Below are positions 1,845 through 28,888 of a stretch of 28,888 bases of DNA, piece by piece. The notes beneath the pieces are model-generated. The model was given only the letters and a program-made list of their open reading frames with translations. It searched no databases and was not told where the DNA came from. The stretch is taken from IMG/VR virus record IMGVR_UViG_3300012928_001820, positions 1 to 28,888 of that record. One strand, 5' to 3'. The DNA is from a virus. A program made the translations under genes and the position numbers. Every line of letters starts with the position of its first letter. Within the stretch, counting starts at the first letter, position 1.

Positions 1845-2186
1845 ATGGAATTATCAATAGGTAAAAACATATTACCAATAGAAGTAATGGATACACCTAA
1901 CCAAAAAAGTTTGGGGATGATGGGTAGAAAAAAATTGAATGGTGGAATGTTATTTAATTTCCCCGATGTAGGAGAACAATCTTTCTGGATGAAAAATTGT
2001 ATAATTCCATTGGATATCATTATGTTAGTAGATAATAAAGTGACTAAAATACATTCTAATTGCCCTCCATGTACTACCAATTCCTGTGAAAACTATAAAG
2101 GAATAGGTAATAAAGTATTAGAATTAAATGGAGGAGAATGTAAAAAGTTAGGAATTAAATTAGGAGACACATTAAATTTTATTTAA
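1845..2186 (+). CDS. DUF192 family protein
   Basis: This 113-residue protein matches the DUF192 family along its length. Visible family features are GMMGRKKL near residues 24-31, GMLF, the QSFWMKNCIIPLDI core around 45-58, the HSNCPPC segment, and the closing stretch with NKVLELNGGECKKLGI. The biochemical role of DUF192 is not established. Many bacterial members are exported, but this one has no signal peptide or lipobox, so it should be cytoplasmic. The gene is convergent with the DHH gene and overlaps its 3' end by 8 bases. ATG 1845 is preceded by TATTTAT at four bases. An ATG at 1841 is in another frame and opens only a very short ORF. Confidence 0.82.
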   Translation: MELSIGKNILPIEVMDTPNQKSLGMMGRKKLNGGMLFNFPDVGEQSFWMKNCIIPLDIIMLVDNKVTKIHSNCPPCTTNSCENYKGIGNKVLELNGGECKKLGIKLGDTLNFI

Positions 2187-4092
2187 TCTCTTTACCTATT
2201 TTATTTAACAATTCATGAGCTAAACCAACGTTTTCCATAGCTTTAACCACGTCACTTTTCCCTACAATAGGAATCTTATCAAGTAAACTTTTTAATTTAT
2301 CTAAAATCCCAGGTACTTCATCTAGAGCCAATCTCTCAAGACCTTGTTCTCCCACAAAAGCTGCAAAATCACTGACACCAGTTGGGTCTGGAGCTAACTG
2401 GACTATTCTAGAAGTTAAATCTAAAAGGTCAGAAGTTACACTAAACATTTCTTTTTCTATAAGTTTAAGGTCTTTAGCCGTAGGGTTAGCTTTAAATTTA
2501 TCTAGAGCTATTTCTAGGTCAGTATTATGTTTTTTAACCTCATAAATGTTTTTACCTATTAGTGCTAACATTACTGGCATTCCTACCACACCACTTGCAC
2601 CGATAGCTGCTGCACCTAAATCACCTAACATATCGGAAACAAAAGAAGTTTCTAAAAGTGTTTTCTTTATGTTATATTTAATTTCGTTAATAGAACTTTG
2701 TTCTATTTTTTCTTTAAGTTTTTCTACCATTTGGTTTTGTACCCATTTTACAAATTCCACATAACGAGTTGTTTGACCTGGTTTTTTTCTATAGGAACCT
2801 TGAGGATTTCTAGTCCCTCTTGAAAAAAAGTTAAGCCCACTTACGTTTGTTATACACTTATGTCCACCACTATTGGCTTGAATTACGTCCCAAGCGGACA
2901 CCGTTATTCTATCTAAAATTTGTTTTTGTTCTTCATCGAGTGCTTGCCAAGGAGTGTCTATTATATTAACAGCTTCTCCATAATAAGGAGAATCCATTGG
3001 GGGCATATTATTAAGTTTGTCTTTATACAAAGCAAATAAATCCGAAGTTTTAAAACCTATACTACCTTCATCTGCTTTTGTCTCACCTATTCTTTTTATT
3101 ACTGAAACTGGAACTTGATGTTTTTTAAGTTGAGGTTCAATACTACCTAACACCTCTTGAGCTATATCAGCTAGATTAATACCTTTAAGTGCTCTATCTT
3201 CCTTAAATGGATTACAAGAAGCTTGTACTAACCCCATTGGCCAAGCTATCACTAAAAAGTCAGCGTCTGGATATATTTTAAAAGGTGTATAACGGTCATA
3301 TGAACCAGGTTTAAATAAACTACCTCCCCCATATTGTACTATGATATTACCATCTAAATTTAATTTATCACTTTCTATTTGGGATTGAATATAATCTTCT
3401 TGATTACGTTTCATTTGTTCTGGAGTCGCGAAATTCTCATCTCCAGCGATAGCATTTATATTTTGAAAAATATTCATCAACGAGGGCGAAGACCTATCTA
3501 CTAGTGATTCTAAGAATCCTGGTTTGTTTTTATAAGCCAATAATAGTTTATTGGTTAAAAGTGCTAACATCCATTTATTACTTGGAACAGTACCGTTAGT
3601 GTCAAACTTTTTAATGTAGTTCATGACATCATCTGGTGTTAAACCATGTTTTGCATAATCTGCACTATCTACAGTAGATATTCTCATTATATCATCACTT
3701 GTAAATATATCTTGTGGACTCACAATTTGTGAAAGAGTCTCAACATTAGACCTCGCACCTCTAAACTGAGTTGAAGTGTCATCCTCCACACCAGATTGAC
3801 TATCGTGGTGGTCAGTGTGAATAGTAAACATAGGTTTACCATGAGCAAAATCAACTAATACTTGCATTGTATCCCCTTCAGCTTTAGGTTTAGATACAGA
3901 AAATTCTTTATCACCATATTGTATAACATGTGTATCCACCACATTAATACCATATTTCTCAAGGTATTCTTTCATGGCTATTGCAGATACTACTCCATCC
4001 AGGTCTTGATGAAAATATATTTCAGCTTTAGGGTATCTTTTAGCTATTTTATTAATATCCTTTATGCCACTTTCTTTGATTATCTTTTTCAT
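2179..4092 (-). CDS. DHH/DHHA1 phosphoesterase with C-terminal hydrophobic module
   Basis: This 637-residue protein opens with a DHH phosphoesterase domain: DLDG at 30-33, DFAHG at 81-85 and the signature DHHD at 94-97, which bind two metal ions in this family. SGGH at 408-411 matches the DHHA1 substrate-binding motif. Relatives hydrolyse short RNA or DNA, pAp, cyclic dinucleotides, pyrophosphate or polyphosphate, and the substrate here cannot be told. Residues 468-481 hold INE and LLE tripeptides. They are followed by about 155 residues with a hydrophobic Ala/Gly-rich helix (490-515) and amphipathic helices, not part of usual DHH enzymes. The N-terminus carries IKE at 5-7. The gene lies 16 bases after the endolysin gene and has its own TATTTAT box. 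I infer a head-packaged enzyme, possibly cleaved between its two halves. Confidence 0.82.
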   Translation of the reverse strand: MKKIIKESGIKDINKIAKRYPKAEIYFHQDLDGVVSAIAMKEYLEKYGINVVDTHVIQYGDKEFSVSKPKAEGDTMQVLVDFAHGKPMFTIHTDHHDSQSGVEDDTSTQFRGARSNVETLSQIVSPQDIFTSDDIMRISTVDSADYAKHGLTPDDVMNYIKKFDTNGTVPSNKWMLALLTNKLLLAYKNKPGFLESLVDRSSPSLMNIFQNINAIAGDENFATPEQMKRNQEDYIQSQIESDKLNLDGNIIVQYGGGSLFKPGSYDRYTPFKIYPDADFLVIAWPMGLVQASCNPFKEDRALKGINLADIAQEVLGSIEPQLKKHQVPVSVIKRIGETKADEGSIGFKTSDLFALYKDKLNNMPPMDSPYYGEAVNIIDTPWQALDEEQKQILDRITVSAWDVIQANSGGHKCITNVSGLNFFSRGTRNPQGSYRKKPGQTTRYVEFVKWVQNQMVEKLKEKIEQSSINEIKYNIKKTLLETSFVSDMLGDLGAAAIGASGVVGMPVMLALIGKNIYEVKKHNTDLEIALDKFKANPTAKDLKLIEKEMFSVTSDLLDLTSRIVQLAPDPTGVSDFAAFVGEQGLERLALDEVPGILDKLKSLLDKIPIVGKSDVVKAMENVGLAHELLNKIGKEIK

Positions 4093-6944: not shown

Positions 6945-8852
6945 ATGAGTAAGAAAACCACAAAATGGGAAACAATTTTTAAAGATGTAGACGAAAAATT
7001 TGAACTATTATCTTATGAAGACTATAATTTAATTCCTACAGGTGATACTGAAGACGAAGAAGAAGTATTTAACTTGAATGGTAATAGAGTAACCACTCGA
7101 CCAGTTAGTGACCAGTGGGCAAAAAAAACTAGTGTACCTTACGTACAAAAAAAAGATGTTAAGGGTATAAAACATGTGGAGGTGGGGTTCTTTACACCTA
7201 AAGGCGATATCCAATTTATAGGGGAGAAAGAATGGTTAGAAAAATCTGTGAACATACTCAACAGTGCTTTGGTTAGGAGAACAACACTAGTCTTAGAAAA
7301 AAATGAAGATAAGATTAAATTATCTCTATTTAATTTTTGTAAAAGTAGAAGTGTCGGTCATAGGTATTTTGCTAAACAAAGTAATGACATTCACATTACC
7401 TTTAATTTAAAAACTAAAAACTTTTATGTAACCATATCTAATTTTGTTAATCGACGTAAAAGAACTAGCACAACCAAGAACGATTTTTCAAAAATTGTAA
7501 ACATAATTAATCCTTTAAAGTTCATTAATATATTTGGCGGGTTGATACACCCTACCCAACCTAGAACAACCTTTCCGACTAACACACCAACCCCCAAAGT
7601 AGAACCTATAAAAGCTTTGATAGAATTAGTAGAAGAATTAGATGTAGACATTAGTGTGGTTCCACATGATAGTAATTCCCCATCTGAACTATTAAGTGAA
7701 ATTATTGTAAAATGGTTTGTTAAAGTATGGGGAATTAAAACTTCTAACGATTACACTTATTATTTACTCAAACATTATCCCGGGATTAAAAAGTTAAGAA
7801 AATATGATATGAACTTAATTCATACTATATTAGGTGAAAGAGAACTTAAAGGTAAGTTTTACAATAAATTACTTAATCTAGAACCAGAGATTAATATAAC
7901 AGACCTACACTTCCTTCAAAAAACTTTAGGTGATGATGGGGTAAAAAGAATATCGACTCATCTACTAGCTTATAGTAAAAATTTTGAGGATAGTAAATTT
8001 ACCCAACCAGAACATTTAATTACTAATATTGGGTATTGTAATGAACTCTCCAAGTATGAGAAAAATAATATAATTAATATATACAATACCTGTAAAGACC
8101 CTGGAAGGATTACTGGTTTTATAGATTTACTGTTAGACCATTTTAAAATTAAAAATAAACTAAAAGGGCATGGTATCCTTAAAAAGATAAAAGCTAAAAC
8201 CTTGGATAAATTTAACGAGGAACATAGTGAATGGTCTAATTTAGTTCATGAATGTGAAAGAACCACACAAGTCAATTATCTATACCCTAATGATTTTATT
8301 ACTCACATAGAAAAACCTATAGAATTAGACGGGGACACATATTTTGTGAAAGTATTAAAGGATGATAATGATTACTTTAAAGAAGGGCAAATACAAAATC
8401 ACTGTGTACGAACTTATTTGAATAGATACAAATGTATTATAATTTCGGTTAGAAAAAATCATGAAAGTGGAATGGAAAGAATGACTTGTGAGTTTAGGTT
8501 GGATAGAGGAGAAATATACAACTGGGTAGATAGAGGAATAAAGGAAAGTACCCCAAACCTAATTCAAGCGAGAATGAAATACAATAATAATCCTACAGGA
8601 GACTGGGAAGTTGTTATGAAAGTTTTACGAAAAGAGTTTTTAGATTACTCTTGTAAACCTAGAAATAACACAAGACCTATTATTAAAATTAGTAATAAAA
8701 TGACAAACCATATTGAGACTTTAAAATACGATGTAAAAGTTGATAGATTTATAAGTGATGATACGATAACACATGAACACCCAGGGGTTACAGTACCCGC
8801 AACACCCCGGGTTAGACACGAAAATTATATGAGAGATGATTTACCTTTTTAA
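6945..8852 (+). CDS. PcfJ-like domain protein
   Basis: A 635-residue protein whose residues about 446-575 resemble the PcfJ-like family, known from plasmids and phages and of uncertain biochemistry. The recognisable core is FKEGQIQNHCVRTY around 478-491, then IIISVRKN and the strand ERMTCEFRL. The N-terminal 200 residues look like beta-rich segments plus a basic patch (VNRRKRT at 168-174), and 220-440 is helical. The C-terminus after 600 is Pro-rich and probably disordered. The first residues contain KWETIF, shared with the divergent membrane protein. It starts four bases after a host-type -7 element, so the message is nearly leaderless. It is followed by the glutamine synthetase gene after 47 bases. 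Confidence 0.65.
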   Translation: MSKKTTKWETIFKDVDEKFELLSYEDYNLIPTGDTEDEEEVFNLNGNRVTTRPVSDQWAKKTSVPYVQKKDVKGIKHVEVGFFTPKGDIQFIGEKEWLEKSVNILNSALVRRTTLVLEKNEDKIKLSLFNFCKSRSVGHRYFAKQSNDIHITFNLKTKNFYVTISNFVNRRKRTSTTKNDFSKIVNIINPLKFINIFGGLIHPTQPRTTFPTNTPTPKVEPIKALIELVEELDVDISVVPHDSNSPSELLSEIIVKWFVKVWGIKTSNDYTYYLLKHYPGIKKLRKYDMNLIHTILGERELKGKFYNKLLNLEPEINITDLHFLQKTLGDDGVKRISTHLLAYSKNFEDSKFTQPEHLITNIGYCNELSKYEKNNIINIYNTCKDPGRITGFIDLLLDHFKIKNKLKGHGILKKIKAKTLDKFNEEHSEWSNLVHECERTTQVNYLYPNDFITHIEKPIELDGDTYFVKVLKDDNDYFKEGQIQNHCVRTYLNRYKCIIISVRKNHESGMERMTCEFRLDRGEIYNWVDRGIKESTPNLIQARMKYNNNPTGDWEVVMKVLRKEFLDYSCKPRNNTRPIIKISNKMTNHIETLKYDVKVDRFISDDTITHEHPGVTVPATPRVRHENYMRDDLPF

Positions 8853-8899: not shown

Positions 8900-9976
8900 A
8901 TGAAAGTAAAATTAGAATACATTTGGTTGGATGGGAATGAACCAACACAAAAGTTAAGAAGTAAAACTAAAATCTGGGACTACGACCCAATGGACAGTCC
9001 AAAAATGCAAGCTAAAAGAACAATGGCTTATAATGGTAGAGTAATACCGTGTCCCGAGGAATTACCTAATTGGAGTTTCGACGGCTCCTCAACCAATCAA
9101 GCAATAGGAAATAAGTCAGATTGTATTCTTAAACCAGTTCACGTTATAATGGACCCACAAAGACTAGATGGGTATCTGGTAATGTGTGAAGTTTTGAATT
9201 CTGACGGTACCCCACACATCACAAATAAAAGATATGACTTGGTAGATGACGACCAATATTGGTTTGGTTTTGAACAAGAATATATCCTTAGTAAAAAGAA
9301 TGGCCCTATAGGTTTTCCTACCGACGGTTTTCCTAAACCACAAGGAGATTATTATTGTGGGTTAGGTGCTGGAAATGTCATAGGTAGAGATATAGTGGAA
9401 GAACATTTACAAGTTTGTTTAGAAGCTAATCTTAATATTACTGGAACCAACGCGGAAGTAATGATTGGACAATGGGAGTACCAATTGTTTGCTGAAGGAG
9501 CTAAGAAAGCTAGTGATGAATTATGGTTATCTAGATTCCTTTTAATTAGATTAACTGAAAAATATGATTTGATGGTAGACTTTAAACCTAAACCAGTAGA
9601 AGGAGATTGGAATGGTTCTGGACTTCACGTTAATTTTTCAAGTGACTTAACCAGAGAAATTGGTGGAGAGCAAATGTTTAATTCTATATGTGAAGAAATG
9701 GGTAAAAACCATCAAGAACATATTGAAGTTTACGGAGAAGAAAATGAAAAAAGATTAACGGGTTTACATGAAACACAACATATTAGTAAATTTAGTTATG
9801 GTGTTAGTGATAGAGGAGCAAGTATTCGTATTCCGATTTCTACTGTAGAAAATGGATGGAAAGGTTATTTAGAAGATAGAAGACCAGCAAGTAATGCTGA
9901 CCCATACTTACTAACTAAAACAATTTACAATAGTTTAGTAATAGCTGAAAATAAATTTAGAACAATAGAAGTATAA
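8900..9976 (+). CDS. glnII: Type II glutamine synthetase
   Basis: The 358-residue protein is a type II (eukaryote-like) glutamine synthetase, which makes glutamine from glutamate, ammonia and ATP. Conserved blocks are all present: SFDGSST at 59-65, FGFEQEY at 122-128 with both metal-binding Glu, TNAEVM at 183-188, EGDWNGSGLH at 234-243 with the ATP-site His243, RGASIRIP at 305-312 and EDRRPASNADPY at 325-336. The length is normal for the type, and no active-site residue appears lost. Some Bacteroidota encode this type, so acquisition from a host is plausible. Two bases separate it from a run of thioredoxin-fold genes. Upstream there is only an imperfect promoter-like TACTTTG at 8856-8862. The enzyme could supply glutamine for nucleotide synthesis in the infected cell. 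Confidence 0.95.
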   Translation: MKVKLEYIWLDGNEPTQKLRSKTKIWDYDPMDSPKMQAKRTMAYNGRVIPCPEELPNWSFDGSSTNQAIGNKSDCILKPVHVIMDPQRLDGYLVMCEVLNSDGTPHITNKRYDLVDDDQYWFGFEQEYILSKKNGPIGFPTDGFPKPQGDYYCGLGAGNVIGRDIVEEHLQVCLEANLNITGTNAEVMIGQWEYQLFAEGAKKASDELWLSRFLLIRLTEKYDLMVDFKPKPVEGDWNGSGLHVNFSSDLTREIGGEQMFNSICEEMGKNHQEHIEVYGEENEKRLTGLHETQHISKFSYGVSDRGASIRIPISTVENGWKGYLEDRRPASNADPYLLTKTIYNSLVIAENKFRTIEV

Positions 9977-12184: not shown

Positions 12185-13627
12185 ATGAATTTACGAGACG
12201 CACTTCAGACACAAGACACAGTAACCGAAAACGGGATGACAACTAACTCATCTACTTTAAATCACTGTGTAGACCTATTCTTTCAGATAGGTGCGATGAG
12301 AGGTATGGACAAGAAAAGACTTGTTTCTAAATTCTCAAAAGCGTATAACGAAGACGCTCTAGTAGCCATGAGAATTTTATTCTGGGCAAGAGACGTAAGA
12401 GGTGGTGCTGGTGAAAGACAAATTTTTAGAGATTTACTAGGTTGGTTGTGTAAAAATCACAGTGATGTACTAAACAAAAATGTTCACTTAATTAGTGAAT
12501 ATGGAAGATGGGATGACATTTTGACACTTGTCGGTAGTACTAACTGTTGGTTGGAACCACTAAACTTAATCAAAACTGCTTTGGAGAACAAAGATGGGTT
12601 ATGTGCAAAGTGGATGCCTAGAAAAGGAGTTAAAGCGAATACTATTAGAAAGTATATGAAAATGACTCCTAAAGAGTACCGAAAAACTTTAGTAGGATTA
12701 ACTAATGTGGTGGAAACCAGTATGTGTTCTAAGGAATGGGAGAATATTAACTATTCTAAATTACCATCCTTGGCATCATCTAGATACCAAAAAGCATTTC
12801 ACAGAAATGACGGGGAAAGATATCGTGAGTATGTAGAGTCTTTGAAAAAAGGAACTGCTAAAATCAACGCGGGAGCGGTGTACCCTTACGACATTACCAA
12901 ATCCATCAAGTTCGGTGACTCTGATGTTGCGAGTGAACAATGGAAAGCTTTACCTAACTATATGGAAGGTTCTGAAGAAAGAATTCTTCCAGTAGTTGAT
13001 GTCTCAGGTTCAATGGGGTGTTTTGCGGGAAATAATCCTAACCTTACTTGTATGGATGTGGCCATCTCCCTAGGTTTATACATTTCGGAAAGAAACATAG
13101 GTCAATTCCAAGATACGTTTATAACGTTCTCGGCACGACCAAAACTTCAAGTCCTTAATGGTAACCTAAGGGATAGAATGAATCAACTAGAACGAGCGGA
13201 CTGGGGTATGAACACTAACTTAGAAGCGACCTTTAAACTAATTTTAGACCAAGCTGTCAAAAACCGAGTTTCACAAGATGATATGCCAACAAAGGTATTG
13301 ATTCTATCAGACATGGAATTTGATACGGCTCTAGGTAAAACTAGAGGTTGTAATTGGGCTGGTGTATCTGAGTGGAATCCAACCGCACAACAAATGATTA
13401 AAGGAATGTATAAAGATGCTGGATACGAAATGCCAGATGTCGTTTACTGGAACTTAAACTCTAGGAATGACAATTTCCCTACTTCAGTTAATGAGATGGG
13501 AACAGCATTAGTATCTGGTTTCTCTCCTTCAATCATGAAAAGTGTTTTAACATGTGAGGAGTTCACTCCTTACAACATGATGATGGAGACTATCGACTCA
13601 CCTCGATACGAACCAATCACGGTCTGA
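12185..13627 (+). CDS. Ro60-like TROVE/vWA-type protein (DUF2828 family)
   Basis: A 480-residue protein with the architecture of DUF2828 and Ro60-type RNA-binding proteins. Residues about 25-220 are helical-repeat-like and contain the family signature RDVRGGAGERQIFR at 69-82 and LISEYGRWDD at 102-111. Residues about 267-450 form a von Willebrand A-like domain with a MIDAS metal site: DVSGSM at 272-277, Thr344 in MNTNLE and Asp376 in LSDMEFD. Ro-family proteins bind misfolded or Y RNAs in a helical-repeat ring closed by the vWA domain. Binding here is inferred. The gene stands alone after a terminator and is followed directly by apparently structured RNA and a tRNA-nucleotidyltransferase-like gene. 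ATG 12185 is preceded by an A-rich sequence. Confidence 0.85.
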   Translation: MNLRDALQTQDTVTENGMTTNSSTLNHCVDLFFQIGAMRGMDKKRLVSKFSKAYNEDALVAMRILFWARDVRGGAGERQIFRDLLGWLCKNHSDVLNKNVHLISEYGRWDDILTLVGSTNCWLEPLNLIKTALENKDGLCAKWMPRKGVKANTIRKYMKMTPKEYRKTLVGLTNVVETSMCSKEWENINYSKLPSLASSRYQKAFHRNDGERYREYVESLKKGTAKINAGAVYPYDITKSIKFGDSDVASEQWKALPNYMEGSEERILPVVDVSGSMGCFAGNNPNLTCMDVAISLGLYISERNIGQFQDTFITFSARPKLQVLNGNLRDRMNQLERADWGMNTNLEATFKLILDQAVKNRVSQDDMPTKVLILSDMEFDTALGKTRGCNWAGVSEWNPTAQQMIKGMYKDAGYEMPDVVYWNLNSRNDNFPTSVNEMGTALVSGFSPSIMKSVLTCEEFTPYNMMMETIDSPRYEPITV

Positions 13628-16191: not shown

Positions 16192-16662
16192 ATGGATGAA
16201 ATAATATACATAGTATCTTTTATAATTTTTTTAGTAGGAATCTCAGGTTCTATAGTCCCAGGAATACCAGGCCCATTTATTAGTTATATGGGGTTGGTTT
16301 TAATATACGGAACTACTGATTTTCCTGTGTCTACTGAAATGATGTGGATACTAGGGTTCTTTATGTTATTATCTACTGTAGGTGATTATGTCTTACAGAT
16401 ATTAGGAGTCAAGAAGTTAGGTGGTGGTAAAAATGCCATTAGAGGTACAATAATAGGTACCATAATTGGGTTATTAGTTCCACCTGTAGGGATATTAATA
16501 GGTGCACTGATAGGTGCATTTATAGGTGCACAAAGTGAAACGGATAATGATTCACAAGCTTTAAAAGTTGCTTTAGGTGCATTTGTTGGATTTGTTTTGG
16601 GTACTGTCGTCAAACTAGTTTACAGTATCTATATTATTTATTACGCAATTACATTATTATGA
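16192..16662 (+). CDS. DUF456 family membrane protein
   Basis: A 156-residue integral membrane protein with about four hydrophobic helices. The family signature is visible: GISGSIVPGIPGPFISYMGL near 17-36, GVKKLGGGKNAIRG near 72-85, and Gly-rich helices IGTIIGLLVPPVGILIGALIGAFIGA. DUF456 members are small membrane proteins of unknown role. The last codons overlap the UV endonuclease start by four bases (ATGA), so the two are cotranslated. Confidence 0.85.
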   Translation: MDEIIYIVSFIIFLVGISGSIVPGIPGPFISYMGLVLIYGTTDFPVSTEMMWILGFFMLLSTVGDYVLQILGVKKLGGGKNAIRGTIIGTIIGLLVPPVGILIGALIGAFIGAQSETDNDSQALKVALGAFVGFVLGTVVKLVYSIYIIYYAITLL

Positions 16663-17579
16663 ATTTAGGATACGCTTGTATAAACATGACCCTAAGTGGT
16701 CAAAAACCAAAAATTACCACAAATAGGTCAATGATTAAAAAAACCTTTTTAAGTAAAGGTATTGATTATGCGGGAGAACTAGCGTTATTAAATTGTACGG
16801 ACCTATACAAAATTATACTTTGGAATGTAAAAAATGGTATTAAGTTTTTTAGAGTATCTTCAGATATATTTCCCTGGGCTTCTGAGTACAACATAGAAGA
16901 CCTACCACAGTATGGGACGATTCAAACAATATTAAGTAGTTGTGGTCAGTACTCTAAAGACAACGGTTTAAGACTAACTACACACCCAGGACCTTTTAAT
17001 GTCCTAGTCTCACCGAGAGAACATGTGGTAAAAAATACTATAACTGATTTGACCAATCACGGTAAAGTTTTTGATTTATTAGAATTATCACGCACACCTT
17101 ACAATAAAATTAATATTCATTGTAATGGTGTCTACGGTGATAAAAAGGCAGCTATGGACCGATTCTGTGAGAACTTCAAATTATTACCTGAGTCAGTCCA
17201 GACTCGTCTTACAGTTGAAAATGATGACAAAGCGAGCATGTACTCAGTTAAAGACTTAATGTATATACATGAAAAGATAGGTATCCCAATAGTCTTTGAC
17301 TATCACCACCACAAGTTTTGTACTGGAGGTCTTTCAGAAAAAGAAGCTTTGGAATTAGCAATCTCTACATGGCCTACAGATATTACACCTGTGGTACATT
17401 ATTCCGAATCTAAATCACTACATGAAAGTAATGAAAAAATAAAACCACAAGCACACTCCGACTATGCGGACAAGATACCAGATACCTATGGTAATGACGT
17501 AGATATTATGGTAGAAGCAAAAGCCAAAGAGTTGTCAATATTGAAACATTTAAATCCCCAACCTAGTTTAGTAATATAA
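16659..17579 (+). CDS. uvsE: UV-damage endonuclease (UvsE/UVDE)
   Basis: A 306-residue TIM-barrel endonuclease of the UVDE family, which nicks DNA 5' to UV photoproducts and starts alternative excision repair. Metal ligands expected from the family can be placed: His109 in THPGPF, His154 in NIHCN, Glu187 in VENDD, Asp214 and the His cluster in FDYHHH (214-218), His247 in VVHYSES, His266 in AHSDY and Glu286. RVSSDIFPWASE at 65-76 matches the conserved RxSSDxFP block. It appears full length and intact. It would help the phage repair its DNA. It overlaps the DUF456 gene by four bases. Confidence 0.93.
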   Translation: MNLGYACINMTLSGQKPKITTNRSMIKKTFLSKGIDYAGELALLNCTDLYKIILWNVKNGIKFFRVSSDIFPWASEYNIEDLPQYGTIQTILSSCGQYSKDNGLRLTTHPGPFNVLVSPREHVVKNTITDLTNHGKVFDLLELSRTPYNKINIHCNGVYGDKKAAMDRFCENFKLLPESVQTRLTVENDDKASMYSVKDLMYIHEKIGIPIVFDYHHHKFCTGGLSEKEALELAISTWPTDITPVVHYSESKSLHESNEKIKPQAHSDYADKIPDTYGNDVDIMVEAKAKELSILKHLNPQPSLVI

Positions 17580-18691: not shown

Positions 18692-19360
18692 ATGAAAGAT
18701 AATATAATTAAAGATTTTAGTTTATACGCTAGAAGTATGAAAAACCCTATAAGTTCTACAACTTTATGGGATTATGAAAATGCCTTAACTCCCTACATCT
18801 TAGAGGAAAGAGAAATGAGAGCAACCCAGATGGACATTTTTTCTAGATTAATGATGGAAAGAATAATATGGTTATCTGGACCAGTAATGGATATAACAGC
18901 ACAAGTGTTACAGGCACAAATAATGTACTTAGATACGATTAATGATGACGACATTACATTACATATAGATTCTCCTGGTGGTTCAGTAAAAGCTGGTTTA
19001 GGTATTGTAGATGTAATGGAATATGTTAAATGTGATATCAGAACTTTAAATACTGGTATGGCAGCATCAATGGGTTCAGTACTATTAGGTGTGGGAACTA
19101 AAGGTAAAAGAAGTTCTTTACGTTACAGTAAAACAATGTTACACCAGTCTAGTGGTGGAGCAGTAGGTAACATCCAAGACGCTCGTATTACTATGGACGA
19201 GTGGGAAAAAACTAACAAGATTTTGTTCGAAATTTTAGGTAAAGCTTGTGGTAAAACAGCAAAAAGAGTAGAAAAAGATGCACAAAGAGACTTGTGGTTG
19301 GATGCACAACAAGCATTAGACTACGGAATAATCGACGAAATAATTCAAAAAAGAAGTTAA
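18692..19360 (+). CDS. clpP: ClpP-like serine protease, copy 1
   Basis: A 222-residue ClpP-type peptidase. IDSPGGSV at 92-99 forms the oxyanion strand, Ser126 lies in GMAASMGS, His151 in MLHQSSGG and Asp200 in AQRDLWL, so the Ser-His-Asp triad is complete. The extra N-terminal 40 residues resemble a propeptide or axial-loop extension. Cellular ClpP forms a tetradecamer fed by an AAA+ partner. A phage ClpP could work with the host ClpX/ClpA, replace a host subunit or act in head assembly. It lies one base before a second, divergent ClpP gene. Confidence 0.9.
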   Translation: MKDNIIKDFSLYARSMKNPISSTTLWDYENALTPYILEEREMRATQMDIFSRLMMERIIWLSGPVMDITAQVLQAQIMYLDTINDDDITLHIDSPGGSVKAGLGIVDVMEYVKCDIRTLNTGMAASMGSVLLGVGTKGKRSSLRYSKTMLHQSSGGAVGNIQDARITMDEWEKTNKILFEILGKACGKTAKRVEKDAQRDLWLDAQQALDYGIIDEIIQKRS

Positions 19361-19361
19361 A

Positions 19362-19961
19362 ATGAAAAAAGAACCAATTTGGGGAGCCAAAGGTGAAGAA
19401 ACCAATGCTTCCAGTGATAGTACAAATCAAATTACAAATGTAGACAACCACATTTATTTCTATTCAGAAGTAGAAAGACCTAAGATGTTGGAATTAAATA
19501 AAAAACTAAATGAATTAGATGTGAAACTTCAAACTACTAGTTTAAAGTTAGGGACAGAATTACCTAAAATTTATCTTCACATTAATTCATATGGTGGTAG
19601 TATTTTTGCAGGGCTTTCAACCCTAGATACGATTAGAAATACAAAATGTGAAGTCGTAACAATTATTGAAGGATGTGCTGCTAGTGCGGGTACAATGATA
19701 AGTGTGGTAGGTAAAGAAAGATACATGCATAAACACGCTTACATGTTAATACACCAATTAAGTGCTGGGAGTTGGGGTAAATATTCTGACCTAGTTGATG
19801 ATATGGAAAATAACACAAGGTTAATGGAGATGATAAAAAAATTATATAAAGAATATACCCAGGTTCCCGATAAAGAATTAGATGAGATTCTCAAACATGA
19901 TTTATGGTGGGACGCAGAAAAATGTTTAGAGTATGGTCTAGTAGATAAAATTTTGGATTAA
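19362..19961 (+). CDS. clpP: ClpP-like serine protease, copy 2
   Basis: A 199-residue ClpP-type peptidase clearly different from its neighbour. INSYGGSIFAG at 74-84 replaces the usual DSPGG, Ser108 lies in GCAASAGT, His131 in LIHQLSAG and Asp180 in KHDLWW, so the triad is kept. It has its own N-terminal extension with a predicted helix at 39-56. Adjacent, non-identical subunits suggest a mixed ring as in cyanobacterial or plastid ClpP/ClpR complexes, except that both here keep the triad. It is followed by a membrane-protein gene after nine bases. Confidence 0.9.
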   Translation: MKKEPIWGAKGEETNASSDSTNQITNVDNHIYFYSEVERPKMLELNKKLNELDVKLQTTSLKLGTELPKIYLHINSYGGSIFAGLSTLDTIRNTKCEVVTIIEGCAASAGTMISVVGKERYMHKHAYMLIHQLSAGSWGKYSDLVDDMENNTRLMEMIKKLYKEYTQVPDKELDEILKHDLWWDAEKCLEYGLVDKILD

Positions 19962-19970
19962 TTACACAGT

Positions 19971-20435
19971 ATGTTAGAAAAATATATACAATGGTTGGAT
20001 AAAATAGCTGTAAGTCTTAGTAAAAAAGGAAACGTTATCCCATTTATTAAAAAACATAAGTGGAAAATGTTAATAATCTTTTTTTTATTTAAAGGATTAG
20101 AAACAATGTATGTTTTATATAAAAGAGGAATGTGTACAAATTGTAAACCTCCCACAGAAAAACAACTTGAAAATTTTGGTGGGGACATAGAAAAATGGAC
20201 ACAATATAATTCTAATTTTAACTTTGTACCATATACAGATTTTAAAACATATTTCTCAGACTTACTTTTCCCATTACTAGTCAATTGGATTGTATTAATA
20301 GTTGGAATTTCAATAATTTATATAACATATAAGTTAGGTCTTAACATCCTTAAAAATATTAGAAGTAGGGTAACTGATAAAATAAAAAATAAAATGGGAG
20401 AACAATTGAAAAAACAAAAATTAAAAAACCAATGA
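19971..20435 (+). CDS. Membrane protein with two transmembrane helices
   Basis: A 154-residue protein with a hydrophobic helix near 33-50, a loop of about 45 residues containing CTNC at 55-58, a second helix near 99-119, and a strongly basic C-terminal tail ([12 protein letters not shown]). Helix count and charge suggest the loop lies in the periplasm and both ends in the cytoplasm. The CxxC could bind metal or form a disulfide. I do not recognise the family. It overlaps the cyclophilin start by four bases (ATGA). Confidence 0.65.
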
Positions 20436-20848
20436 GAATAACAACTGAACATGGAGATATGATAATTTCATTATATGAAGAAACTCCTTTAACTACAAAA
20501 AATTTTAAAAATTTAGTTAATAATAATTTTTATACAGATTTAAATTTTCACAGAGTTATTCCAGGTTTTGTGGTACAAGGTGGTTGTCCCGAAGGTACAG
20601 GAGCAGGTGGACCAGGACATACAATTAAATGTGAAACAAATAGTGAAAAACAATATCATGAAAAAGGTGTTTTATCTATGGCTCATGCAGGTAAGGATAC
20701 TGGAGGTTCCCAATTCTTTATATGTCTTAACAGACATACAACTTCACATCTAGATGGAGTTCATACTTGCTTTGGTAGGGTTATAAAAGGTATAGAAATA
20801 CTTGACAAAATAAAACAAGGAGATAAATTTAATATATTAAAAAAATAA
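20432..20848 (+). CDS. Cyclophilin-type peptidyl-prolyl isomerase
   Basis: A compact 138-residue cyclophilin, which catalyses cis-trans isomerisation at proline. Active-site blocks are present: [13 protein letters not shown] at 39-51 with catalytic Arg41, [15 protein letters not shown] at 83-97 and [12 protein letters not shown] at 106-117. It is shorter than the usual 160-170 residues but lacks no core strand that I can see. No signal peptide, so it is cytoplasmic. It is cotranslated with the preceding membrane protein and lies three bases before a glutaredoxin-like gene, forming a folding and redox cluster with the ClpP pair. Confidence 0.92.
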
Positions 20849-21756: not shown

Positions 21757-24700
21757 ATGAGACAAAATTCACTAAATATTAATGAAAATATTGACCCAGA
21801 GTTACAATGGGCAATAGATAATCAATACCGAACTAACCCAGAACTAAGGGATGAAATTTTAAGTTCAGTAAGTAGTGATGAACTAGATTCATATGTAGTA
21901 AATGTAGAACATGGTGATGTTAAATTAAAATACCCCCCTGAACAAATATTAGAAAAACTTACAGGATTATCTGATTTAGGTAATGTAGTAACAACCATGA
22001 GAGGTGGTAATGGGGTAGCTATTATTACGGACAAAGATTTGGTTGTTAAAATTACTGGAGATAAAGCAGAATATATAACAGCTAAAGAACTGGAGGGTAT
22101 AGATAGTGAACACATAGTTAAAGTTCATGAAAGTAAGGTTATCGACCCAGACGACCAAAGTATTTATACCGACGATAGTAAACCAGCATATTTAATTATA
22201 ATGGATAAAGTAGATTCTCCCACACCCCAACAAGAAAAAGATTGGTTTGATTGTTGTTGTAGTGAGGATAAACCCATATATGTAGATTTTACTGACCCTA
22301 ATGGTGATGCGGTAGTACATCCACCAGTAGATGATTATGATAAATGTAATAAGATTTATGATGATATAATGAACATTCGAAAAGAGGTTGAAAAAACAGG
22401 AAGAAGGTGGGTAGATATAGGTATAGACAATGTAGGTATGAAGGACGGTAATTACGTATTAATTGATTTGGGAACAAATGACCCACTACCACTTAATGAA
22501 AGTAAAAAAATTATAAACGAAGGATTTTTTGATATTTTAAGTAGTTTATTTAAAAGACCAGAACAAAAAAGTGATACTCCTGACGAGTTAAATCAATATC
22601 TACAACAGTTACAAGATACTTTGGACGAGAATGAAATCTATGACGAAGAGGTTTCCAGATTAGTGGACCAGTTAAAAGATTCAGATTATATAGACCTGGT
22701 AGATTTCCCAACAATGTTAAGAGGATTAGAAAACAAACTTTTAAAAAGTGGGAACAATAATGAAATTGTTATAGACTATTTAAGTAGGTTAAATAAATCA
22801 TTACCCAAAAGAGCTAAATACGAAAAGAAATTACTTCAAGGACAAGTGCCAGAAGACAGTGAGTATTACGATGAAGTAGAACAAGAAAAATCTAGAATAC
22901 CTAAAAAAGTATTTAAAACTGAAAAAGAACTTTTACAAATAGAGTTATTAAAATTACAGGAATGGGTAAAGAAAAATAATGTACCAGTAGTTTTAGTATT
23001 TGAAGGTAGAGACACCGCAGGTAAAGGCTCGACAATTAAAAAATTAACAGAATATCTAGACCCGAGATATTATAATGTAGTAGCTTTAGGTATACCTACT
23101 GAAGATGAAAAGAAAAATTGGTTCCAGAGATATGAAAAATATATTGAACCAGGTAAGATAACCTTTTTTGATAGGAGTTGGTACAATAGAGGAATAGTAG
23201 AACCAGTAATGGGATATTCTTCAAAAGAAGAGTACGAACAGTTTATGAAAGAAGTTGTTCCCTTTGAAAAAAGTTTATTAAGTAGAGGGGTCATACTAAT
23301 TAAGTTTTGGTTATCGATTACTCAAGGAAAACAAGAACAAAGATTTACCATTAGACAACAGTCCCCACTTAAGTATTGGAAATATTCACCAAACGATGAA
23401 GCGTCCAGAGAAAAATGGGATGAGTATACTGACTATAAAGAACGAGTATTAAAAGATACATCACATGGTAATGCTCCGTGGGTAGTTCTAGATTCTAACG
23501 ATAAAAGAGTTTCCGCATTAAATGCTATGAGACATGTGTTAGACCAAGTAGATTATGATGGTAAAGACAGTGAAACAGTACGACCAAAATATCCTGAAGC
23601 TATTAGTACCATTAGAAGAAGATTAGACGAACAAAGTGAAGGGGAAGTTAAGTTTACAAAAAGTGCAGAGAGAGTATTAAACACTGCGTGGTCGATGTCT
23701 AAAAATTCACCACATAAGTTTGTAGAGTTTAGGTCAACCTTAAATAGATTTTTTAATGTACCTCCTACTACAGCTGAAGACTTAACTTTTTTATGTAAAT
23801 ACAATATACAAAGGGGTAATGAAGAAGTAGAAGAATGGGTTATACCCTACATTTATGAATCCACAGTTTACGTTTATGGTGATTATGACACAGAATCTTA
23901 TTATGATGATTGTGATGAAGAAGGTATAAGTGAAGATTATAGACAGGAGTGTGAATGTCAAGAGGGTGAAATTATGGATGAAGAGGAGGAGGAATACAGG
24001 CCTTGTGATGAACAGGAGTTAGAGGATGTCCACTATGATGATGAGTGTGAGTGTAATAGTTGGGAAGACCCAACAATAGAATTATATTATTATCCAATAT
24101 ATAGAAAAACAGTATACAGTACATCTGACCCACATGAGTTAGGGTGTGTATACGACAGTCACCATGACCTAGATGATTATATGGGATGTTTATCAACGGA
24201 TGATGAGGTAGTCGAAGTGATGTCGGAAGAACATGAAGATGATACTGACAGAGTTTTAGAAGAGGACTTTGATTATGATAAAGAACACACCATAGCTGAC
24301 ACATGGGAATATGATATAGACACTGATGATTGGTATGGAAGTTATATGATAAATAAAATAAATGAATTATATCCTGATAAATCAACCCCCACACAATTAA
24401 ATGAAAATAGGTTAGGTAGTAGAGGTAGTGATATTAAAGACATACAACAAAAGTTATTAGATTTAGGTTATGATTTACCAAAATTTGGTGCTGATGGACA
24501 GTTCGGTCCCGAGACTCGTAATGCAATTATAAAATACCAAACAGATAATAATTTAACAGTTGACGGCATAGTAGGTCCTGAGACATCTTCTTTACTATTT
24601 GGAAGTAGTGATAAAAAATATCAAGACACAAGTGATGATGAAATTGTTGGTGACGTTGAACCTAACGTTGATATTAATACTAACACACCAACAGTAATCT

Positions 24701-27700
24701 TTGTAGGTGGTTTAGACACTAGAAGTGGTGACAAATCTTTAAGTCAACAAGAAGCTGATTTAAGAAAAGGTTTAGGTGGTAATTTTAAAATAATTTCACA
24801 CAGGTATACTGATGGTTCTGGTGCTGTTAAATCATTACAACAAAATCCTAACGCTTTTGTTGTTTTATTTAGTGCTGGAGCTAAACACGCTGAAGATTTA
24901 GTTAGTAATATGAGTAATCCATCTAAAATGTATATCGTGGAACCTTACACTTGTAGTTCTACTAGAAAAACAGGTGTTGAAAATGCTATAACTAAAGGTG
25001 TACCTCGAACAAATGTTTTAGGAGGACCAGATAATTGTGTAGGTAAAAATGTAGCTGGAACTTTCAGAAATAGTTATAATGGGAAAAGTCATTGGGACGC
25101 AGTTAGAGGTGTGGGTCAGATAATTAAAAATAATACAAGACTTAATGAACAACAATTATCCATGTTCCCAACTGGACAATGGAGATTACCAGTTGGTGAA
25201 GAAGATGAATTAGAACCATTAGAAAAAATGATACCCGAATCTATAGTCAAGGTAATATTTCAACAATGGGATAAAGAACAACCTCTTGTAATGGACGATA
25301 GGGATTTTAAGTTGTTTGGTCTACCTAACGATGAGAGATTATTATTATATTTAATAGTCAGGTACTTACAAAATACCACCAGACCTATTCCTGTTGGTAG
25401 AGTGTGGGACTGTGATGATTTAGTTTCCTTATTTAATGATGAAGATAGAAGTGCAGCACAGAAGTATTTGTGTGAAGAAGACTTTGATTATGAGAGTATG
25501 TACGGATATGACGAGTGGTACGAGGGGATGTTGGATAACTTAGACGATATGAGTTGGAAATATATTACCACTTTACTTGGTGTAGATAAATCTACAGCAG
25601 AAAAGCTTTTAGATGATAGTTACACAACTGCAGAAGAGGGAGAGATATGGAGAGAAAAAGAAGATGACATTCAGAAGATTAAAGATTTAATGGGATGGGC
25701 CAATGAACGTGCAGCAGCTGACACTACCTTTAATGCTATTAGACAAGATATTAAAGATAAAATAGAAGAACATTTTGAGAATGAAGGAAAATTTGATTAC
25801 GACCATAATGGTAGTATTGTATATGAAATTAAAGGAGACTTAAAAGATTACGTACAAGACCCCGACACTTGGGACAACATAGAAAGATTTAATAACCATG
25901 AAGAGTTTAGAGATAGACACTTACAGGATATTTTATATGATTTTGACTTAAGAAAATCAACCCGTGACGGGAATAATCCTCCTCTTACACGATATACTAC
26001 CTCTGATGTAATATTCAATTTATTCATGGAAAATGATTTCGCAATTTGGTGGGATAGTGAAAAAGATTATTTAGATATTGACGGTAAATTTTTCGACCAT
26101 TACTGGTATCCAGACTATGACTTCAACCAAGATTTTAGGGAGTACATGATGGAGGAATATTATGACGAACTCAGAGGGAATATAAATGAACATGTTAGTG
26201 ACAGTTCTAAAATCTTAAATGAGAATCCAGTCGCTTTAGTAGGAAATATACTTAAAACTCTACCTAAAATAGTGGGTCTGGAGGGTAACATACTTAAATT
26301 GGTAAAGAGTGCAGAATTACCTGTTAATCTAGGTAAAGGTATCAAAGGAGGTAGTATATTCCCTACAGAAGCTTTAACTCTAGCTTCCCAAGGTAATCCT
26401 ACATATAAAAGTTTATTGACGACATTACCCGCAACACTAAAAGATGGAACCAAATTTGCTAAACCACTAAACAAACATTTGGATGATATATTTCTTCAAG
26501 TTAATACAAAGAATAAAGACTTCACAAGAAAATTTAAAGATAGAATAGATAATGTAACGACTACATTTAATAATGCTTCCAACACACCCAGTGCATACCA
26601 AATCCAAGCTCCTGATTTTGGTGGTGGAAAGATTAGTATGAATATGACAATGAAATCACAACACCAGTGGGGAGGAGGTTTTCTAAAGGATTTAGATAAT
26701 GTCCACGACCAGGTGCGTGGGTCACTAAACGTTATAAGTAAAAACAATCCAACCATTACCGCATCCCATCCTGTAATGAAAGCTGGTAAAGATTTCCAGC
26801 GTCAACTCATGAGGATAAGGGGTAATAAGAGTGATGTTGGTGTAAGAAGGTTTTACAAAGAGGTAAGTAAAGGTTCTTCTACTTTTAGTAAAGAACTTGG
26901 TAAATACTTAAAAGACATTGATAAAAACGTAAGTACTATTAAAAAAACAGTTTTACCCACTACTAAAGTAGTAGAACCTGTGGTAAAAACAGTTACCCCT
27001 ACTAAAGCAGTTACGGATGTGGTAAAAACAGTTACTCCCACCAAACCAGTTGTGGATGTGGTAAAAACAGTCACACCTAAAATACAATCTTGGAAACTTA
27101 AGGATTCACCTCATAGTTTTTGGCAGAAAAATTACAAAAAAGGTAAAGATGGGAAAATAATAAATATAGCAGCCGATGGGAAGAAGGTAAGTGAATTATT
27201 TAAGACATTAAAGGCAACCACAAAAATAAGTCCACACAACTTAGGAGACGTAAAATCTTTATCTAAACGTTACACAGATTTTACTAAAGGGTTAGTTAAC
27301 GGTAAACCAATTACAGATAAACCCATGATGCTAAAGGAACTTCAAAAATTTTCTAAAGACATTTCTAAATTCAAAGATAAGATGCTCAATGACCAAAACT
27401 TCAGAAGAGGAAGTAGTTACTCTTTCGGTACCCCGGGGGGGTCATACGGACCAAAGATGAGCTTCAGTCAACAGGGAGAGAGATTTAAAAAGGAATTTTT
27501 ACAGAGGAAAGAAAAATGGGATAAGAGTTGGGACTTGTTAAAAAAGATTGATGATTCAATTTGGTTTCGGTCAGGACAACCAGGGGGAGCGAGCTGGGAG
27601 GATTTGAAGGGGATAGGTGCTAAACATTTTGTAGGAGGTATTTATGAACAAAAAAATTATGATGCTGAGATAGAATTAACGAATAGTGACGCTTACATTG

Positions 27701-28888
27701 AAGAAACACCAATTACAAAACAAGAAGCTAATATTCTTAATTTAGTATTGGATAGATTTAGTATAGAAGAACTTAATGAATTAGTATCAAATGATTTAAC
27801 AGAAATAGGGAGTGAGGTTGAGAATAAATGGATAAATTTTGTTAAGTTAATCGGTGAAACGGCAAATACTCCAGAAACATTTACTAAAAGTACCAGATGG
27901 GCAAAATGGATGTTGGATAACCTTGATAAAGCAGAGTATGTAAATGAAGAAGGTGAAATTATTATTGATTTTAATAATGTGGACATTCTAACTAAAAATT
28001 ACCCTTCGGTTTATGAAGTAGAGGGAGATGAAGCTTTATGGCAAAAAGAATATAGAAACGCCAAAGTATTCATACCAGCATTTGATAGGGACGATGCAAA
28101 TAGTAGAGCTGAAACAAGTTTTTGGGAGTATGACCCTGACTTTGAAACTTATGATTATGGTGACGCGGATTCTGATTATTTTAATATTGAAGATATAGAA
28201 CATTACAATGTTTTAAAAGAACAAATCATAGATACTGAAAATTTACCAGAAGAAGAGATGAGTCCTGACTTAGTTGAAGGTGATAAAGTATTTGTGTGGG
28301 ATATAACGCCTGAACCCAAACCACCAGGTAGTTCCTTTCCACATAGAAATAGTCCTCTTCACAATATCCCTTCCACAGTTATTGGGGTGGTGAGAGAAGT
28401 AATCCCTTTTGATAATCGACAGAGAAGGAGTGAGTACCGAGGAGGTATAAAATACATTATAGACACTTCTTCAGGTTTGATAGGACTATACCAAGGAGTG
28501 GAAGATTATAACCATTATGCCGATGATGGTGGAGGTAGAGATAAGTGGGTTAAACTAAACAAACAAAACCTACAAGAGATTAAAAAAATCACCGACCTAA
28601 AACATATTGAAAGACAAAAAGATTTTACATTAAAAAAATCTTTTATGGAATCAATAAATAATTTAACTGAAAAAGATATTACACCAACCAAAGAAAGTGT
28701 GGTAGAAAGTAGAGTTACATTGTTTAATTACTTAGACGGAATCACAAAGGTTAATCTAATAAAGGAAGAAGAGTTACCTAAGTTTTTAATTGGAGGTAGA
28801 ACTTGGACTGATAGATTTACAGTATCCAGTTCAATAGACTTAGACGACATTAAAGAAAACTCTAATAAGGTAAGAGATATTATACTTA
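21757..28888 (+). CDS. Giant multidomain protein: kinase-like, PPK2, peptidoglycan-binding (C-terminus beyond window)
   Basis: At least 2377 residues with no stop; an in-frame TGA two codons before ATG 21757 fixes the start. Domains: kinase-like at about 75-245, with GGNG at 83-86, Lys98, Asp220 and Asn225 (D-x4-N) and Asp237 in a DFG-like DLG; PPK2 polyphosphate kinase at about 385-598, with Walker A GRDTAGKG at 417-424 and FDRSWYNR at 471-478; an acidic Cys/Tyr-rich stretch at about 697-865; a peptidoglycan-binding repeat at about 888-949; an alpha/beta domain of unknown type at about 978-1122; helical and Thr/Pro-repeat regions; an SH3-like stretch near 2170-2280. INE at 8-10 and further (L/I)NE tripeptides near domain edges suggest a head-packaged polyprotein. 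Binding to peptidoglycan suggests a role at entry. PPK2 makes nucleotides from polyphosphate, or the reverse. Confidence 0.88.
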   Translation, partial: MRQNSLNINENIDPELQWAIDNQYRTNPELRDEILSSVSSDELDSYVVNVEHGDVKLKYPPEQILEKLTGLSDLGNVVTTMRGGNGVAIITDKDLVVKITGDKAEYITAKELEGIDSEHIVKVHESKVIDPDDQSIYTDDSKPAYLIIMDKVDSPTPQQEKDWFDCCCSEDKPIYVDFTDPNGDAVVHPPVDDYDKCNKIYDDIMNIRKEVEKTGRRWVDIGIDNVGMKDGNYVLIDLGTNDPLPLNESKKIINEGFFDILSSLFKRPEQKSDTPDELNQYLQQLQDTLDENEIYDEEVSRLVDQLKDSDYIDLVDFPTMLRGLENKLLKSGNNNEIVIDYLSRLNKSLPKRAKYEKKLLQGQVPEDSEYYDEVEQEKSRIPKKVFKTEKELLQIELLKLQEWVKKNNVPVVLVFEGRDTAGKGSTIKKLTEYLDPRYYNVVALGIPTEDEKKNWFQRYEKYIEPGKITFFDRSWYNRGIVEPVMGYSSKEEYEQFMKEVVPFEKSLLSRGVILIKFWLSITQGKQEQRFTIRQQSPLKYWKYSPNDEASREKWDEYTDYKERVLKDTSHGNAPWVVLDSNDKRVSALNAMRHVLDQVDYDGKDSETVRPKYPEAISTIRRRLDEQSEGEVKFTKSAERVLNTAWSMSKNSPHKFVEFRSTLNRFFNVPPTTAEDLTFLCKYNIQRGNEEVEEWVIPYIYESTVYVYGDYDTESYYDDCDEEGISEDYRQECECQEGEIMDEEEEEYRPCDEQELEDVHYDDECECNSWEDPTIELYYYPIYRKTVYSTSDPHELGCVYDSHHDLDDYMGCLSTDDEVVEVMSEEHEDDTDRVLEEDFDYDKEHTIADTWEYDIDTDDWYGSYMINKINELYPDKSTPTQLNENRLGSRGSDIKDIQQKLLDLGYDLPKFGADGQFGPETRNAIIKYQTDNNLTVDGIVGPETSSLLFGSSDKKYQDTSDDEIVGDVEPNVDINTNTPTVIFVGGLDTRSGDKSLSQQEADLRKGLGGNFKIISHRYTDGSGAVKSLQQNPNAFVVLFSAGAKHAEDLVSNMSNPSKMYIVEPYTCSSTRKTGVENAITKGVPRTNVLGGPDNCVGKNVAGTFRNSYNGKSHWDAVRGVGQIIKNNTRLNEQQLSMFPTGQWRLPVGEEDELEPLEKMIPESIVKVIFQQWDKEQPLVMDDRDFKLFGLPNDERLLLYLIVRYLQNTTRPIPVGRVWDCDDLVSLFNDEDRSAAQKYLCEEDFDYESMYGYDEWYEGMLDNLDDMSWKYITTLLGVDKSTAEKLLDDSYTTAEEGEIWREKEDDIQKIKDLMGWANERAAADTTFNAIRQDIKDKIEEHFENEGKFDYDHNGSIVYEIKGDLKDYVQDPDTWDNIERFNNHEEFRDRHLQDILYDFDLRKSTRDGNNPPLTRYTTSDVIFNLFMENDFAIWWDSEKDYLDIDGKFFDHYWYPDYDFNQDFREYMMEEYYDELRGNINEHVSDSSKILNENPVALVGNILKTLPKIVGLEGNILKLVKSAELPVNLGKGIKGGSIFPTEALTLASQGNPTYKSLLTTLPATLKDGTKFAKPLNKHLDDIFLQVNTKNKDFTRKFKDRIDNVTTTFNNASNTPSAYQIQAPDFGGGKISMNMTMKSQHQWGGGFLKDLDNVHDQVRGSLNVISKNNPTITASHPVMKAGKDFQRQLMRIRGNKSDVGVRRFYKEVSKGSSTFSKELGKYLKDIDKNVSTIKKTVLPTTKVVEPVVKTVTPTKAVTDVVKTVTPTKPVVDVVKTVTPKIQSWKLKDSPHSFWQKNYKKGKDGKIINIAADGKKVSELFKTLKATTKISPHNLGDVKSLSKRYTDFTKGLVNGKPITDKPMMLKELQKFSKDISKFKDKMLNDQNFRRGSSYSFGTPGGSYGPKMSFSQQGERFKKEFLQRKEKWDKSWDLLKKIDDSIWFRSGQPGGASWEDLKGIGAKHFVGGIYEQKNYDAEIELTNSDAYIEETPITKQEANILNLVLDRFSIEELNELVSNDLTEIGSEVENKWINFVKLIGETANTPETFTKSTRWAKWMLDNLDKAEYVNEEGEIIIDFNNVDILTKNYPSVYEVEGDEALWQKEYRNAKVFIPAFDRDDANSRAETSFWEYDPDFETYDYGDADSDYFNIEDIEHYNVLKEQIIDTENLPEEEMSPDLVEGDKVFVWDITPEPKPPGSSFPHRNSPLHNIPSTVIGVVREVIPFDNRQRRSEYRGGIKYIIDTSSGLIGLYQGVEDYNHYADDGGGRDKWVKLNKQNLQEIKKITDLKHIERQKDFTLKKSFMESINNLTEKDITPTKESVVESRVTLFNYLDGITKVNLIKEEELPKFLIGGRTWTDRFTVSSSIDLDDIKENSNKVRDIIL
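26947..27081 (+). repeat. Thr/Pro/Val tandem repeat in the giant gene
   Basis: Units of 39 bases start at 26980, 27019 and 27058 (the last incomplete), with a degenerate unit before them. They encode copies of VVKTVTPTKxVxD. Third-position changes between units show the peptide rather than the DNA is maintained. It is probably an extended linker or a spacer between domains. Confidence 0.8.

Follow-up and report, generated by a model that had tools for sequence, protein, structure and literature searches.

A stretch of viral DNA of 28,888 nucleotides, from a 28.9-kb IMG/VR virus record (hereafter, the window), encodes a polyphosphate kinase of the PPK2 family inside a giant protein of at least 2,377 residues (ORF 21757..28887, + strand; open at the 3' end of the window). 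The PPK2 module is bordered by candidate cleavage sites of the type cut by the prohead protease of phage T4, and the order of the modules varies among relatives. We propose that the protein is a virion-cargo precursor of a T4-like phage, which would be cut by the prohead protease so that, at an early stage of infection, the freed PPK2 would use host polyphosphate to make NTPs; we regard this proposal as evenly balanced between right and wrong. More tentatively, the phage head may carry an energy-regenerating enzyme as one interchangeable cassette of a giant precursor that is cut into separate mature effectors, which would represent a bacteriophage counterpart of the polyproteins of eukaryotic viruses.

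The layout of the giant protein is given in Table 1. Its translation runs from the kinase-like region into PPK2 with no stop in between, and the same in-frame order is repeated at 94% identity in an independent contig (L006), which indicates that it does not result from an assembly join. These observations agree with a previous reading of this DNA made from the sequence alone, which had placed the PPK2 motifs in frame with a kinase-like domain. The span assigned by that reading (residues 75-598) nevertheless crosses the natural units of the protein (kinase-like region, residues ~61-245; PPK2 module, residues 256-625). In L006, the homologous chain goes on for about 40 residues past the window edge.

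Table 1. Features of the giant open reading frame. Arrows mark the candidate cleavage positions.
Feature	Position (nt)	Strand	Remarks
N-terminal peptide MRQNSLNINE↓	21757..21786	+	candidate cleavage site, residues 8-10; not NE in L223
Kinase-like region	21937..22491	+	residues 61-245; motifs and spacing only
Candidate prohead-protease sites LNE↓S and INE↓G	22492..22521	+	residues 246-255
PPK2 module, predicted mature cassette	22522..23631	+	residues 256-625; N-terminal helical domain and PPK2 core
N-terminal helical domain of PPK2 module	22579..22839	+	shared by phage homologs
PPK2 catalytic core	22903..23568	+	residues 383-604; PF03976 match
Candidate site LDE↓Q	23623..23631	+	residues 623-625; L010 equivalent is LNE↓E
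Module X, no assigned function	23632..24405	+	residues 626-883; candidate site LNE↓N at end
Inserted cassette with PG_binding_1	24406..25149	+	residues 884-1131; PG_binding_1 at 889-945; candidate site LNE↓Q at end
Module Y, no assigned function	25150..26190	+	residues 1132-1478; candidate site INE↓H at end
Inserted cassette N	26224..27648	+	residues 1490-1964; window only; after candidate site LNE↓N (1487-1489)
Module Z, no assigned function	27649..28887	+	residue 1965 onward; incomplete at window edge

The PPK2 module is, by sequence and predicted fold, an intact class I-type enzyme under purifying selection (dN/dS ~0.04 relative to two relatives), and its activity is predicted. The motifs GRDTAGKG (Walker A), DRSWYNR (within FDRSWYNR) and SNDKR, which had been called intact, were all found. 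The profile search placed the segment in Pfam PF03976 (E = 1.2e-73; 247.9 bits), and the best PDB matches of the window protein were PPK2s, class I entries ranking first. Across 31 aligned phage sequences, the columns of G-RD-AGKG, of DRSWYNR and of the lid are invariant. Class I is assigned by the asparagine that follows Walker B, and PPK2 enzymes are reversible (PMC8776046). This asparagine of DRSWYNR is found in the window and in every aligned phage homolog, which suggests NDP to NTP as the expected preferred direction. The structure prediction led to the same family: a model of residues 256-625, based on an alignment of 28 window and viral sequences, reached a mean pLDDT of 82 and matched the PPK2 of F. 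tularensis (PDB 5LL0) with a TM score of 0.93 (2.0 A over 240 columns; 49% identity where aligned). In this model, the 17 residues that directly follow INE↓ are predicted to be disordered, as an accessible cleavage site would be.

The module shares its core, Walker A motif, DRSWYNR asparagine and fold with the class I enzymes of F. tularensis (5LL0/4YEG) and S. meliloti (SMc02148; 3CZQ/6DZG). Unlike these enzymes, it presents an additional N-terminal helical domain, lies in a giant phage ORF and is flanked by protease-like sites. The helical domain was not found in the three nearest bacterial PPK2s that we checked. The best viral structural match (A0A8D9CF65 in BFVD; 419 aa, 40% identity) is annotated as a "thymidylate kinase" of an uncultured marine phage and is apparently the same type of protein under another name, but it is of stand-alone size and does not belong to a giant ORF.

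Upstream of PPK2, residues 61-245 form a putative kinase-like domain, with resemblance at the level of motifs. The residues K98, D220, N225 and D237 highlighted by the sequence-only reading were all found, at kinase-like distances from one another (D to N +5; N to D +12), and the region, which stops just after DLG and has no C-lobe, is under purifying selection (dN/dS ~0.05). A protein-kinase domain was not recovered, however: the Pfam search returned no match for this region, PF18762 (Kinase-PolyVal) did not match at E ≤ 10 and the PDB profile search yielded nothing relevant. The AlphaFold model, for which just 3-4 near-identical homologs were available as input, was unusable (pLDDT 38). In one further contig (L224, positions 1-611; 3300030061_002851), the kinase-like region is interrupted where residue 214 would lie, and the sequence beyond this point is unrelated, reflecting either a chimeric contig or a true recombination within the kinase-like domain.

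The comparison of relatives revealed that cassettes are shuffled around PPK2. The window presents the order K-PPK2-X-PG-binding cassette-Y-N-Z (K, kinase-like region), L006 the order K-PPK2-X-Y-Z and L223 the order K-X-Y-Z, in which PPK2 is missing; L007-L010 present X-PPK2-Y-Z'. Module X is thus N-terminal in L010 and C-terminal to PPK2 in L006 and in the window. The natural variant without PPK2 (L223) diverges exactly at LNE↓, and the peptidoglycan-binding cassette of the window (PF01471, E = 9e-17) is missing from L006 with junctions at LNE↓. The joins of the window protein read PLPLNE↓SKKIINE↓GFFDIL, IRRRLDE↓QSEGE, TQLNE↓NRLGS, TRLNE↓QQLSM, GNINE↓HVSD and KILNE↓NPVAL. The prohead protease of T4 (gp21) recognizes the motif L/I-X-E (PMC9026906). 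Both borders of the PPK2 module (INE↓G and LDE↓Q) fit this motif, a fit of statistical nature given how short the motif is.

The [IL]NE motif was found nine times in the window protein against 1.66 expected from shuffled sequences (none of 2000 shuffles reached this count). Using alignment blocks of at least 60 aa, 13 of the 42 homology-block ends were located within 10 aa of an [IL]NE motif against 2.5 expected (P = 6e-7, a nominal value because block ends are not fully independent); most block ends lie farther away. Of 14 non-redundant homologs, 13 present an [ILM]xE site within the 40 aa preceding the PPK2 module, relative to a control rate of 0.40 (P = 6e-5; sites anchored on alignment columns, an anchor chosen after a first version of the test, with several homologs mis-anchored, had given P = 0.03). 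The exception is homolog L126, which presents no such site before the PPK2 module. What lies upstream of PPK2 varies by clade, from short tags to an SH3-looking domain or other modules, and the site is still there. The description of PPK2 as fused to the kinase-like domain is correct for the ORF; the fusion itself is probably a precursor state, because its borders bear sites resembling those of prohead proteases and cassettes are gained or lost at these positions. As a separate observation, the SH3-looking domain ahead of PPK2 in other clades (L096, L097, L101, L103 and L105) is short and reads P.VKEGD.I.LV.M, and module Z of the window contains a similar stretch (EGDKVFVWD).

Nine of the ten larger contigs with PPK2 encode both a capsid protein of the T4 gp23 family (E ≤ 2.4e-62) and an S77 prohead protease (E ≤ 1.1e-23). 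Their capsid proteins carry ENQASHLINE↓A/S or a similar sequence at the predicted end of the propeptide, and those of the megaphages carry HQINE↓NAY, HSINE↓NAY and HQMNE↓NVG; all full-length capsid proteins of these contigs present [IM]NE there. Comparison predicts these capsid sites, at a position comparable to SFLTE↓AEIG of T4; the T4 sequence was compared by eye, as the automatic alignment had gaps there. In a second, overlapping set of capsid proteins, INE was found in 40/40 of those with a readable motif context. Searches of the contigs of the window's clade with Pfam families and home-built profiles detected neither an S77 protease nor a convincing capsid gene. This is best explained by the contig ends, since the left end of G001 shows synteny with a part of G014 that lies ~6 kb away from the capsid gene of G014, and since G006 ends inside its protease gene. 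The nearest relatives of the late-sigma-like gene of G001 with a capsid gene on the same stretch (83-84% identity) read THLINE↓ATSS.

In three megaphage records (634-735 kb), PPK2 is stand-alone and its N-termini read MINNFIKFINE↓E, MISNYDNFMNE↓S and MPVYNFHKFINE↓E, tags that may correspond to the capsid-targeting sequences of T4, which they resemble. The internal proteins of T4 carry capsid-targeting propeptides of 10-19 residues that are removed (PMC9026906); IPI starts with MKTFKEF and presents ITE↓A further along. Many other proteins of the megaphage LR756502 start alike (e.g., MIKKWNQFINES and MLRKYGQFINEE), and [ILM]NE is 2.8-fold enriched in the first 30 aa of its proteins (P = 6e-11), against 0.8-fold in the bacterial control. 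A looser N-terminal motif was enriched 1.73-fold in G001 and 1.48-fold in the bacterial control; because this motif is also enriched in bacterial controls, we relied only on the stricter [ILM]NE test for the megaphage. In the window's own clade (G001), the tag enrichment is weak, hardly above the bacterial control, and the N-terminus of the window protein is not clearly of the capsid-targeting type. In contig G014, PPK2 is found among many proteins tagged with sequences such as MKKVVRLTESDLTRIVKRVINE. The border motif, the capsid propeptide motif and the tags of the megaphage PPK2s lend comparative support to the earlier suggestion of a putative head-packaged protein.

Two further observations concern tagged genes. 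A dense run of genes in G014 (2547-46174; L180-L182), whose products start with RLTESDL..IVKRVI.E or MKYLITESQL, resembles an array of packaged proteins. A DHH-like protein of the window (2179-4092, - strand) presents the short tag MKKIIKE↓S, with other copies in W01 (91808-94084) and G006 (69625-71880); its megaphage homolog starts with MLRKYGQFINE↓E and its G006 homolog carries a C-terminal peptidoglycan-binding domain.

In the model that we propose, the giant precursor would enter the prohead core, where a T4-type prohead protease (present in relatives) would cut after the glutamates of [IL]-[ND]-E. Within the head, cutting would free PPK2 (approximately residues 256-625) along with the adjacent modules, and the freed pieces would be ejected together with the DNA. 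PPK2 might then work in the class I direction, using host polyphosphate to turn NDPs into NTPs during the takeover of the cell. Alternatively, PPK2 could be an ordinary intracellular auxiliary metabolic enzyme, uncleaved within a multidomain protein or stand-alone, with [IL]xE reflecting a linker preference or chance. The report of viral ppk2 as an expressed auxiliary metabolic gene (PMC13188868) agrees with this possibility, as do the weak tag enrichment in the window's clade and the homolog without a site (L126). However, the counts and placement of the motif, the capsid propeptide motif and the tag enrichment of the megaphage would then all be coincidences, and we view this alternative as unlikely, although it deserves serious consideration. 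It is less probable still that the protein is packaged without being a polyprotein, i.e., that short N-terminal pieces are cut or long propeptides (the kinase-like region and others) are lost, leaving one main product in the head. Such processing has precedents in SPN3US, where propeptides of 111-254 residues are removed and cut into pieces (PMC10052503), and in the T4 internal proteins with their loss of 10-19 residues, but purifying selection on the upstream kinase-like region is strong and PPK2 is also found behind other, unrelated upstream modules.

A packaged PPK2 might also serve chiefly in conflict or in the manipulation of nucleotide signals (NTP pools against NTP-depleting defences, or consumption of polyphosphate) rather than in general energy supply. 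This possibility, which we consider improbable, is compatible with the reversibility of PPK2 (PMC8776046) and with polyvalent proteins being mostly conflict effectors (PMC5512222), but PADLOC returned no match to a defence family. Finally, the precursor could be processed, not by a T4-type protease, but by the two ClpP-like proteases encoded in tandem just upstream (18692-19961). These genes match PF00574 (E = 1.9e-56 and 2.1e-30), the first is labeled as a head maturation protease by PHROG and, in G001, G002 and L223, both remain close to the precursor gene. Nevertheless, the relatives encode a genuine S77 protease as well as a capsid protein that bears the same motif, the ClpP-like gene of LR756502 is ~80 kb away from PPK2 and ClpP is not known to cut at a fixed L/I-X-E; we consider this explanation very improbable.

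The proposed cargo precursor can be compared to two known systems. It shares the L/I-X-E motif, the short tags (in megaphages) and the T4-type capsid and protease (in relatives) with the internal head proteins of T4 (IPI-III and Alt), which are cut by gp21. These T4 proteins are separate and small with one propeptide, whereas the window encodes one ORF with many candidate sites and enzymatic cassettes, whose packaging we infer. Polyvalent proteins (Iyer et al. 2017; PMC5512222) are likewise giant multidomain phage proteins with movable cassettes, a peptidoglycan-related domain and a kinase-like region without a C-lobe, to which that of the window can be likened. However, neither PPK2 nor polyphosphate appears there, their kinase profile PF18762 fails on the window, and they are released by embedded peptidases, whereas release in the window would apparently depend on a separate prohead protease. 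In the prohead-protease literature considered here, proteolysis usually results in the removal of propeptides (PMC10052503), and several retained products from one precursor would therefore be new. If the model is true, large T4-like phages bring a ready source of ATP/GTP that needs only host polyphosphate, and takeover could therefore start before new protein synthesis. The match of L/I-X-E to the end of the capsid propeptide would also constitute a sequence rule by which head cargo could be predicted in huge phages that have not been cultured, among them megaphages >630 kb, for which we found no virion proteomics.

Although PPK2 enzymes had been presented as normally stand-alone cellular proteins, they are not rare in phages: a two-pattern scan of IMG/VR identified 348 loci encoding a PPK2 relative. 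Virus-encoded ppk2 has already been reported as an auxiliary metabolic gene (PMC13188868 and work cited there); the part of that report considered here takes a host-metabolism view and describes neither virion packaging nor a precursor architecture. Viral PPKs are thus known, and what is new here is the cassette architecture and the predicted packaging. In the open-access literature searched, we found neither a virion-packaged PPK2 nor a comparable prohead-protease polyprotein. Among 110 PPK2 cores placed in a tree, a branch with 100/100 support unites 34 phage sequences with three from marine bacteria and separates them from 73 bacterial sequences. The three marine-bacterial PPK2s, of normal length and lacking the N-terminal helical domain, fall beside two megaphages with weak support. 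The tree does not establish strict monophyly of the phage PPK2s, and a single acquisition by phages is neither excluded nor proven. We discarded the PPK matches of "Acinetobacter phage MD-2021a", which look like bacterial chromosome (ubiB and recBC neighbours).

Several other genes were identified in the window, all on the + strand. These encode a PcfJ-like protein (6945-8852; PF14284, E = 1e-11), whose family name is linked to plasmids, a glutamine synthetase-like protein (8900-9976; PF00120, E = 2e-13), also found in L003 (12346-13341), a member of the phrog_850 "RNA-binding protein" family (DUF2828/DUF7788; 12185-13627) that is highly conserved in relatives, the UV-endonuclease UvdE (16659-17579; E = 3e-65), the two divergent ClpP-like proteases in tandem (18692-19360 and 19362-19961), which are adjacent in relatives too, and a cyclophilin-type prolyl isomerase (20432-20848; E = 5e-40). 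A homolog of the glutamine synthetase-like gene (59% identity) is located ~1.4 kb upstream of the PPK2 gene in the megaphage LR756501.
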